A stretch of 34,434 nucleotides of DNA from Spirochaetales bacterium (GTDB lineage Bacteria; Spirochaetota; Spirochaetia; DSM-2461): contig JAFGXR010000010.1 of the NCBI GenBank assembly GCA_016936555.1, positions 1-34,434 on the forward strand, written 5' to 3'. The notes under the pieces are model-generated. The model searched no databases. It was not told the DNA's origin and saw only the letters and a list, made by a program, of their open reading frames with translations. The position numbers and the translations under genes were made by a program. Positions 15,158 through 26,836 of the stretch are shown piece after piece (position 1 is the stretch's first letter; every line of letters starts with the position of its first letter).

Positions 15158-15393
15158 CGGTTCCCCTCTGCATAGGGAATTTCTCCCTTCGGGGCGGCAA
15201 TATACGGGGTGAGAAATATTTTTGGCCTTTTAGGATATAATCAGGTAAAATGACATAATTTAGGTTTTTTCTCATACTTTCTTCTTATTTTGAGCATGAC
15301 AAATATTGAAAAAACCTTTTCTATCTCATAAGTTTGTGTCCGAATAAATCAATCTGTGGTAAAATTGCTAAAGTTCAGAGGAGAACATTCAAG
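15158..15393. other. Intergenic region with possible promoter for the cyclase-domain gene
   Basis: Contains an exact TATAAT at 15236-15241 but no good -35 at the right distance, and the 12-base string TACTTTCTTCTT at 15275-15286 that recurs upstream of the paralogous gene at 24894. Some GC-rich small hairpins at 15162-15200 lack a T run, so an fbp terminator is not clear. Confidence 0.35.
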
Positions 15394-16344
15394 GTGTTGG
15401 ATATTTCATTAAAGCAGGAAGTCATCGAAATGCTGGCTCTTACTTTCAAGGCCGATGAAATTAATGAAATAGGGGTTATTCTCTTCAGAAAATTCGACCT
15501 CCATCAGGTCTCGGGAACGCGATCGACAGAAACGGTATCGTCGCGTCGTGCCGCGACGATTCTTGTAGAATACTGCATGGATAAAAAAGGGGAGCTAGGT
15601 CTTCTCGAATTTCTGATTCAGATCGATGATTCCGTATTCCTCGGCAGGCAGGTCGCCGTCGAGGGACTCGAAACTTTCCTCCTCAAGCTCTCCCAGTACG
15701 GATACTTCTACAATCCCGACAAAAGACGGCTGGTCAGCGGGAAAGACGACCCTATGGATATGAAAAACTGGGGTGCCCTTAAAGAGGGAAAATCCTACAG
15801 CATGTCAATTCTCAGCCTGGATATTGTCGAAAATTCAAGACTTGTCAAAGAGTACGGATCAGGGAAGATGAAAAAGCTCTACGCTTCGCTCTGGTCTTTT
15901 TTACGGGAGCGTCTGGCCGCTTATGAAGGCAGAATCTGGTCCTGGGCCGGAGATGGCGGACTTATCGCTTTCGCCATGAAAAAGCACATGATACATTCCA
16001 TACAGTTCGCCATGGAAATTCAGACGCTTATGCTTCTTTTCAATCATGATCCTTCCTATCCGCTGAAGGAACCCATCCAGTTGAGGATAGGCCTGGACAC
16101 GGGAAAAGTTCCCTTTTCTTTTAATACAGGTGAAATCATCTCCGAAGTGATCAACTGTGCGGCCCATCTGGAAAAGGGGGTATGCCTTCCAGGGCATATA
16201 GCCGTTTCCTGCAGGGTTTTTGACGCTATGGGAAAAGGTTACGCCGTTTTCTTTTCCTCGGCCGGGGAGTTTGAAGGGGAGAATACCTATCTCTCCATAC
16301 CTCTGACATATAATATCAAAGAAGCGGAACCGGCATACAGTTGA
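15394..16344 (+). CDS. Class III nucleotide-cyclase-domain protein with small helical N-terminal domain
   Basis: A 316-residue protein. The C-terminal domain (about 133-300) matches class III adenylyl/guanylyl cyclases: first metal Asp D143 in SLDIVENS, second D187 in WAGDGG, exactly 44 residues apart as in known cyclases, then IQLRIGLDTG. The VNxAAR-like segment reads VINCAAHLE, so the transition-state Arg is His. The N-terminal 80 residues are helical and resemble effector-associated or death-like adaptor domains, which is inference. A motif QYGYFYNP...NWGAL joins the two parts and is shared with the gene at 24894. I chose GTG 15394 because AGGAG (15379-15383) is 10 bases upstream; TTG 15397 is possible. 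No membrane segments. The product could be cAMP or cGMP. Confidence 0.75.
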   Translation: MLDISLKQEVIEMLALTFKADEINEIGVILFRKFDLHQVSGTRSTETVSSRRAATILVEYCMDKKGELGLLEFLIQIDDSVFLGRQVAVEGLETFLLKLSQYGYFYNPDKRRLVSGKDDPMDMKNWGALKEGKSYSMSILSLDIVENSRLVKEYGSGKMKKLYASLWSFLRERLAAYEGRIWSWAGDGGLIAFAMKKHMIHSIQFAMEIQTLMLLFNHDPSYPLKEPIQLRIGLDTGKVPFSFNTGEIISEVINCAAHLEKGVCLPGHIAVSCRVFDAMGKGYAVFFSSAGEFEGENTYLSIPLTYNIKEAEPAYS

Positions 16345-24840: not shown

Positions 24841-24868
24841 TTGTTACTTTCTTCTTTTCCTTTATACT
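24841..24868 (+). promoter_or_regulatory. Candidate promoter of the cyclase-domain gene pair
   Basis: TTGTTA at 24841-24846, a 16-base spacer and TATACT at 24863-24868, 25 bases before the ATG at 24894. The spacer contains TACTTTCTTCTT (24845-24856), also found upstream of the paralogue at 15394. Confidence 0.5.
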
Positions 24869-24893: not shown

Positions 24894-25832
24894 ATGGTAA
24901 TGAAACGTCATGTGAGAACATTGGCAATTAACAGTCTCACAGAAGCTCTTGACATAAAAACCATGCTCACTGTAGCCAATCTACTTATGACCGGATACGA
25001 TTCCGATTATATCTACAACAGAACGGGCTTCCCCCGGAATATGCCCATGCCTCCCCGGGAAGTAGCCCGGCAGATAATCGACGATGTGAATACTCTCGGT
25101 CTCTATCTGGAGTTCGTCACGATTCTCATCAGGATGCAGGAAGAGGGGCTCAAATCGCGGCAATACCGCATCCCCTACCTGAGAGAGCTTCTCAACGATA
25201 TTCTCGAACAGGGATACATTTACGAACCGAACCGCAAAATGTTCATAGAGGATCCCGATGTGAGGCGGACACCCAACTGGGGAGTTCTCCGTGCCGATGA
25301 GGATACTTTTTCATTCCTGAGAGTGGACATCGTCGGAAATTCCGATCTGGTGCGAAAATACCCCTCCGATTTAATCCGCTCGACCTATAGCGACTTCAAA
25401 AACATAGTTACGAGGACAGTTGAAAAGAGAAATGCCAGAATCTGGAACTGGGAGGGAGACGGCGGACTGGCCGCTTTTTATTTCGGACGAAATATCCATC
25501 AGTCGGCAGTTCTTTCGGGTATGGAAATCCTGCATCAGCTTTTCATGTACAACAGACTGAGCAGCAGGCTCGATGAAATCCTTAATATCAGGATTGCCGT
25601 GCACAGCGGGCCATGTCATTTTTGTGCCAATCCTTCCGATCTGGACAGAAGCGAGACCATTATGACCATCAAGGATCTGGAGAAAAATAATACCGATGCC
25701 AATTCCCTCTCCATCAGCCGGACTGTCCATGTCATGCTCGATCCCCTCATTGTCCGGCAGTTTGATACAATCAAGAGAAATCAGAAAACCGAATGCTACA
25801 ACTACAGAATCCGGTGGGAGGAGATCCGGTGA
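24894..25832 (+). CDS. Class III nucleotide-cyclase-domain protein (metal ligands present)
   Basis: A 312-residue paralogue of the protein at 15394. N-terminal helical domain (about 15-85), second helical segment to 106, then the shared linker EQGYIYEP...NWGVL (105-132) and cyclase domain (138-305). First metal Asp D145 in RVDIVGNS, second D189 in WEGDGG, again 44 residues apart, followed by LNIRIAVHSG. The segment after DxxG is shorter or altered, and the VNxAxR motif is not obvious (NTDANSLSISRTV). It could make cAMP or cGMP, perhaps only with the partner encoded next. No membrane segments. AGGAAA lies about 8 bases before ATG 24894. GTGA overlap with the next gene shows translational coupling. 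Confidence 0.75.
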   Translation: MVMKRHVRTLAINSLTEALDIKTMLTVANLLMTGYDSDYIYNRTGFPRNMPMPPREVARQIIDDVNTLGLYLEFVTILIRMQEEGLKSRQYRIPYLRELLNDILEQGYIYEPNRKMFIEDPDVRRTPNWGVLRADEDTFSFLRVDIVGNSDLVRKYPSDLIRSTYSDFKNIVTRTVEKRNARIWNWEGDGGLAAFYFGRNIHQSAVLSGMEILHQLFMYNRLSSRLDEILNIRIAVHSGPCHFCANPSDLDRSETIMTIKDLEKNNTDANSLSISRTVHVMLDPLIVRQFDTIKRNQKTECYNYRIRWEEIR

Positions 25833-26809
25833 TTGTTGCCGTAATGTCCGCCTTCGACGATGTCCATCACTTTTTCGGGGAAATCGAATCATCCATGGAA
25901 CACTCCATCTATTATCTGCCCTGGAGAAACTATCAGGAGGAAATTCATAAAATGCCTGCCGATACTCTCTTTTATATTGATATCAGGAATTTCAGGCAGG
26001 ATAAAATCTCCGAAATGATCGATTGTTTCTCTCTCCTGGAAGAGAAAAACTTCGGTGTCATCGATCCGGACGGGCTGATCAACGATGTGGGAAGGCTTTT
26101 CCATAACGGAGCTTGTGATTACATAGGGGGAAAAGTCTTCTCCGGCTCATTTTCGCCTATAAGATTGAAAATTGTTTCGCGCTATATCCTGGCCCGGGAA
26201 TTCGAGCCCGAACCGGTCATGGAAATATTTGATGAAAAGGCCGAGCTCAGCGGCGATAACTGGACATCCATAGTTACGGGCCGGAACTACACTTTCGGCA
26301 TGCTTTTTGCCGAAGTTGATAATTACAGCGAGTGGAAGCTGAAGCTCGGAAGCGATAAATATGAGCATTTTATGCGTAGCTTTTATAATATACTCAATAA
26401 TGTCGTGGAGCCGCTCATGGGGCGCTTCTGGATGTGGTCCGATACGGGGGGGATTGTGCTTTTTCCCTTCGACGGCAAGAAACTGGATATTATAAGAGAG
26501 GCTTTCCGATTATTTCTGAACCGGCAGATCATTTCAACGGAAAATCCTGATTTTGATATCGGCATGACCTATCATCTTGTCATACATATCGGGGAAACTA
26601 TTTATGAAGACCGGGGGTTCACCAGTGAACTCATATCCGATTCGGTCAATTCCATCTTTCACATCGGAAACAATTATTCCCGTGCAGACAGCCTCTATAT
26701 CACGGAGGAAGCGGAAAAATTCATTCCACTTCGCCTGCGGGAGTATTTCGCCGATCAGGGGATGTTTGAAGGCCGTCATATCAAGCGGATGAAAAAGGTG
26801 CATCGATAA
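25829..26809 (+). CDS. Receiver-like plus inactive cyclase-like domain protein
   Basis: A 326-residue protein. I chose GTG 25829: GGAGGAG (25817-25823) is 5 bases upstream and the GTG overlaps the previous TGA. N-terminal 1-105 looks like a response-regulator fold: hydrophobic strand IVAVMSAF, D51 in FYIDIRNF at the phospho-acceptor position, and GACDYIGGKVF with K102 as the conserved Lys. The C-terminal part aligns with the two cyclase domains in this window, but the two metal Asp positions are E162 (LFAEVDNYS) and T206 (WSDTGG), 44 residues apart. It is probably non-catalytic and may pair with the upstream protein to form or regulate an active site. Followed by a bidirectional terminator. 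Confidence 0.65.
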   Translation: MIVAVMSAFDDVHHFFGEIESSMEHSIYYLPWRNYQEEIHKMPADTLFYIDIRNFRQDKISEMIDCFSLLEEKNFGVIDPDGLINDVGRLFHNGACDYIGGKVFSGSFSPIRLKIVSRYILAREFEPEPVMEIFDEKAELSGDNWTSIVTGRNYTFGMLFAEVDNYSEWKLKLGSDKYEHFMRSFYNILNNVVEPLMGRFWMWSDTGGIVLFPFDGKKLDIIREAFRLFLNRQIISTENPDFDIGMTYHLVIHIGETIYEDRGFTSELISDSVNSIFHIGNNYSRADSLYITEEAEKFIPLRLREYFADQGMFEGRHIKRMKKVHR

Positions 26810-26836
26810 AAAAACCGGCTCCAGGGCCGGTTTCTC
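26808..26836. terminator. Bidirectional intrinsic terminator
   Basis: An 8-bp stem AAACCGGC (26812-26819) with GCCGGTTT (26826-26833), loop TCCAGG. A seven-base A run on the left gives a strong U tract for the minus-strand dapA transcript; the T-rich right side serves the plus strand. Confidence 0.85.

Follow-up and report, generated by a model that had tools for sequence, protein, structure and literature searches.

Two overlapping genes in a segment of spirochaete DNA probably encode the two halves of a single heterodimeric enzyme resembling the class III nucleotidyl cyclases. The window (the whole stretch of DNA that was analysed) comprises 34,434 nucleotides from a Spirochaetales bacterium (GenBank assembly GCA_016936555.1, contig JAFGXR010000010.1), and the features described below lie on its + strand unless otherwise indicated. 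The first gene, A (24894–25832, 312 amino acids), codes for a helical N-terminal domain followed by a class III cyclase domain that carries both metal-binding aspartates (C1-like half). The second gene, B (25829–26809, 326 amino acids from a GTG start), codes for a pseudo-receiver followed by a class III cyclase domain that carries only the Asn/His half of the active site (C2-like half). We infer that the A and B proteins bind each other and that catalysis takes place at a composite site between them. Strong support for the assignment as a mixed pair of cyclase domains comes from the conserved tandem order of the genes and from the complementary loss of active-site residues. To this extent the results agree with the initial annotation, which had proposed a heterodimer of a cyclase and a pseudo-cyclase, whereas its view of B as a mere regulator that acts through phosphorylation is not supported.

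The gene arrangement in that annotation was confirmed, including the GTGA overlap of A and B (25829–25832), D145 and D189 in A, and E162 and T206 in B. Coding of A runs from 24894 to 25829 and is followed by the TGA stop codon at 25830–25832, while the GTG start codon of B occupies 25829–25831. An ATG at 25793 was favoured by the ORF lister as the start of B. The GTG is judged to be the better start because a Shine-Dalgarno-like sequence, GGGAGGAG (25816–25823), is located 5 nucleotides upstream of it, and because of the spacing seen among homologues. This spacing is tight (mostly -3 or +1), with exact 4-nucleotide overlaps or abutting genes being most frequent and the 4-nucleotide overlap being the commonest arrangement (24 of 107). 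Upstream of A, a possible sigma-70-type promoter (TTGTTA-16-TATACT, 24841–24868) was identified by consensus match at 9 of 12 positions, and promoter-type matches in this region are no more numerous than in shuffles of it. Downstream of B, pattern matching identified a terminator-like hairpin, AAACCGGCTCCAGGGCCGGTTT (26812–26833), with a 9-base-pair stem including 5 GC pairs that is followed by the T-rich sequence CTCTTTATAT. This putative hairpin is consistent with A and B forming a two-gene unit. Judging from their sequences, we take the genes upstream of A to be ksgA-like and methyltransferase-like, and the gene that follows B on the opposite strand to be dapA-like. The 4.7-Mb genome from which the window derives also has 15 stronger class III cyclase domains and 15 cNMP-binding domains above the family cut-off.

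Searches across the order and the phylum, together with a scan of 84,980 species genomes, yielded 113 distinct A genes. The pair is conserved across Spirochaetota, and all 80 named relatives among the matches listed are spirochaetes, which in itself makes a spirochaete origin of the window very probable. B directly follows A in 111 of the 113 cases, of which 107 were recognized by script and four have a B frame that had been drawn too long. One of the two remaining A genes is located at a contig end and the other is interrupted by an N gap approximately 90 nucleotides into B; likewise, the sole main-type B found beside a broken A is explained by an assembly gap. A solo A and a solo B in one genome (G028; L124 and L123, respectively) were considered as exceptions and rejected, since both lie at 100-N scaffold gaps, and they are probably the halves of one pair. 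The initial annotation had named separate occurrence of the two genes as evidence against its reading, and no A was found without B where the sequence continues. Members of the family are mostly 20–35% identical to P0002. B-like cyclase domains that are short or differently built, and that have no A partner, were observed at L063 (C37:28352-28846 of the same genome), L062 and L061, and in these the loop around the second metal position is changed.

Neither A nor B alone gives a meaningful Pfam match, and a search of solved structures with the A sequence alone returned nothing useful, such that profiles were needed. AlphaFold single-chain models made with homologues have mean pLDDT values of 94.3 for A and 89.5 for B. 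Comparison of these models with the PDB identifies a class III fold in both C-terminal domains, with mycobacterial Ma1120 as the best structural match of each. The cyclase domain of A matches Ma1120 (4wp8) with a Z score of 21.5 (2.0 Å over 160 residues), and that of B matches the same structure with a Z score of 17.9 (2.4 Å over 159 residues). Residues ~1–121 of A (24894–25256) form an all-helical domain as assigned by DSSP from the AlphaFold model. This domain has no Pfam match of note, and no match to it appeared among those listed in fold searches with the whole A model, an outcome from which no conclusion is drawn. Residues ~1–124 of B (25829–26200) are homologous to receiver domains (profile against receiver 8svz, E 1.4e-5).

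In class III cyclases, the transition-state Arg stands four residues after the Asn that orients the ribose. The active sites of these enzymes are formed at the dimer interface, with two metal-binding Asp residues from one subunit and the Asn and Arg from the other (PMC2576301). The metal-binding positions D145 (25326–25328) and D189 (25458–25460) of A share alignment columns with E162 (26312–26314) and T206 (26444–26446) of B. Both metal Asp residues are present in all 113 A homologues, compared with none of the 110 B homologues, a difference far beyond chance. B homologues with both aspartates had been cited in advance as evidence against the pairing, and none was found. The corresponding positions of B vary. 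The first of these is E in 61, G in 18 and D in 2 of the 110 proteins, and the second is F in 29, Y in 15, A in 10, D in 9 and T in only 8. While the metal positions of B drift, its other half of the site is near-invariant. The ribose-orienting position, N274 (26648–26650), is Asn in all 108 readable homologues, and the transition-state position, H278 (26660–26662), is His in 105 of these and Asn in three. This half of the split had been overlooked in the initial annotation: A has lost both residues that B retains, having Asn at the corresponding site in only 5 of 113 homologues and having lost the Arg/His site as well. None of the 107 readable pairs has all four residues in A alone or in B alone, yet the union of A and B provides them in 105. 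The register of the active-site columns is the same in MAFFT alignments, in profile-profile alignment and in HMMER alignment to the solved structure 3mr7. At the level of sequence, the degeneration of A and B is complementary, as it is in mammalian C1 and C2.

The near-absolute conservation of N274 and H278, in a family whose members are so divergent, would be surprising in a subunit with a purely regulatory role. B is therefore probably not merely the regulatory pseudo-subunit that had been proposed, and is most likely a second catalytic half. However, replacement of the transition-state Arg by His, which is found in 105 of 108 B proteins and in 24 of 28 stand-alone relatives, is unusual, so catalysis by the pair is not certain and the Asn and His of B may serve another purpose. 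One alternative is that the A-B dimer forms but has no enzymatic activity, its composite site holding a nucleotide that is not turned over, and that the pair acts as a sensor or scaffold. The His substitution in both B and the stand-alone type would fit this alternative, as would the replacement in B of the Lys that specifies the base, which is mostly Met, Ile or Leu. Little or no variation is nonetheless seen at the metal Asp residues, at the Asn and at R233, the beta-4 Arg of A, as would be expected of a functioning metal site, and we consider a pair without turnover unlikely.

Adenylyl cyclases specify the base through Lys and Asp/Thr, the Lys/Asp pattern denoting ATP. The Lys belongs to the subunit that bears the Asn, where it precedes the second metal Asp position by four residues. 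At the Lys position B has M, I, L or F in 58 of 59 proteins. Of eight ordinary cyclases of the same genome used as references, six were read on the correct strand, and all six have Lys there. Purine-specifying residues are absent from the pair. Given the changes from Lys to Met, Ile or Leu and from Arg to His, neither ATP nor GTP should be presumed to be the substrate. A more extended proposal is that the pair constitutes an obligate split-site, two-gene enzyme found throughout the phylum, which makes a non-standard nucleotide signal other than cAMP or cGMP and is controlled through a non-phosphorylated pseudo-receiver and a dead site. The non-standard signal is suggested by the His in place of the transition-state Arg and by the hydrophobic base pocket. 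We put this proposal forward tentatively, as less likely than not. Residues 313–316 of B (26765–26776) include an FEG motif that is common to B and the stand-alone type. This motif is near the triphosphate-binding L-K-G of ordinary class III cyclases, with the Lys seemingly replaced by Glu in a region where the alignment is uncertain.

The receiver-like domain of B was the basis for the proposal that phosphorylation of B controls A. In this model, catalysis is performed by the cyclase A, and phosphorylation of the receiver of B, a regulatory pseudo-cyclase, switches A. Both residues named in support of this, D51 and K102, are present. D51 (25979–25981) indeed aligns with the phospho-Asp position of the receiver homologue and is Asp in 100 of 110 B proteins, but K102 is offset by one residue from the receiver Lys and is not conserved. 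Moreover, neither the receiver acidic pair nor the full five-residue set (acidic pair, Asp, Ser/Thr and Lys) occurs in any of the 110 B proteins, and 102 of them have Asp at the Ser/Thr site. Control by phosphorylation is unsupported because the domain lacks these required residues. In the divergent lineage described below, it is the phospho-Asp itself that has given way to Glu or Thr among the sequences read. The model also requires A to be catalytic, but A, lacking the Asn/His half, is not expected to be active by itself. In addition, no kinase or other third gene is a conserved neighbour of the pair, the commonest neighbouring cluster being present in 8 of 107 loci. Together these observations make a phosphorylation switch very unlikely. 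Pseudo-receivers are defined as receiver homologues that lack one or more of the five phosphotransfer residues (PMC12632262), and by this definition the N-terminal domain of B, as read from its residues, is a pseudo-receiver.

A gene for a stand-alone relative (S type, 336 amino acids, 15334–16344) is located 8.5 kb before the pair in the window. Its product carries all four active-site residues (D163, D207, N274 and H278) and has the same helical N-terminal domain as A (hhalign P 99.6, E 1.7e-23). Among stand-alone relatives, the two Asp residues and the Asn are present in 28 of 28 proteins each, and the His in 24 of 28. The S type is likely the symmetric homodimer version of the pair. Some other genera of the family have the stand-alone type only.

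A second, divergent lineage of 18 pairs was found in another family of the phylum (f42; L224-L240). In all 18 pairs, the first gene carries both Asp residues and the second carries the Asn and His. The first Asp is present in none of the second genes, and the second Asp is often retained (15 of 18), so the loss of the metal site in this lineage rests on the first Asp. A receiver homologue likewise forms the start of the second gene's product (hhalign P 97), which makes it likely that the two lineages of pairs descend from a common ancestral pair. The loss at the phospho-Asp position in this receiver domain is the reverse of the loss pattern in the main lineage. In a tree of the cyclase domains, the stand-alone type clusters with A and its divergent counterpart, the two B groups branching more deeply, with long branches that leave the order of events unsure.

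If the split-site heterodimer is correct, A would give D145 and D189 to the composite site while B would give N274 and H278, with His replacing Arg. Because the Asp pair is on A and the Asn and His are on B, an A-B dimer would have a single complete composite site, its other site being dead, and A-A and B-B dimers would have no complete site. Translational coupling at the gene overlap would be expected to produce A and B in equal amounts. The helical domain of A and the phosphorylation-incompetent pseudo-receiver of B would be the likely input modules. Co-variation indicative of a salt bridge in the dead site, between an acidic residue at B162 and a basic residue at A257, was not significant (p 0.15).

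We also considered that the pair might be a Pycsar anti-phage system that makes cUMP or cCMP, given that the PADLOC profiles for PycC match A (E 3.1e-6) and 58 of 60 of its homologues. This match is not specific, since these profiles give far better matches (E to 2e-27) to ordinary class III cyclases encoded in the same genome, and on the strength of this control membership was rejected. There is also no PycTM or PycTIR effector and no recurrent neighbour in the 107 pair loci. PycC resembles the pair in having the class III fold and metal Asp residues and in lacking ATP-type base residues. It differs in that its structures are symmetric homodimers and its gene is located beside an effector for cyclic pyrimidines (PMC11224242), and A scores lower with the PycC profiles than ordinary cyclases do. 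We therefore regard a Pycsar function as extremely unlikely. A mobile or defence origin was likewise rejected, as searches of phage records and viral contigs gave no relatives, and those of plasmids only one weak match, to an ordinary cyclase.

How pseudo-receivers signal is an open question (PMC12632262), to which the pair brings a defined example. Together with the intact stand-alone relative encoded nearby, it also offers a natural system for asking how a homodimer becomes an obligate heterodimer and what purpose a dead site serves.

Textbooks describe animal adenylyl cyclase as having a single active site shared between two degenerate halves, an arrangement attributed to duplication and fusion in early eukaryotes. 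Mammalian C1 and C2 form one active and one degenerate site, with the metal Asp residues on one half and the Asn and transition-state residue on the other (PMC2576301, PMC8815786), which is the distribution seen for A and B. Unlike C1/C2, which is a single membrane polypeptide that uses Arg, the pair is encoded by two bacterial genes, has His at this position, carries a pseudo-receiver on the second half and has no Lys/Asp base pattern. Soluble guanylate cyclase is similar to the pair in that separate genes encode the homologous alpha and beta subunits of a heterodimeric class III core (PMC2576301, PMC3591389), but it is eukaryotic, is regulated by haem and NO, and has other accessory domains. 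Bacterial class III enzymes have been described as homodimerising proteins (PMC9552081). Among these, Ma1120, 3mr7, CyaC and Cya2 are the best profile relatives and have the same fold as the A and B domains (Z 16 to 21), but all residues reside on each monomer, unlike in A or B. Other bacterial pseudo-receivers resemble that of B in having receiver homology without the full phosphotransfer set (PMC12632262), while that of B is fused to a C2-like cyclase domain and retains D51 but not the acidic pair. We found no description of this pair, or of such a split-site layout in bacteria, in a literature search whose coverage of subscription journals was thin. Split-site heterodimers are already known in eukaryotes, and what appears new here is a probable split site encoded by two adjacent bacterial genes.
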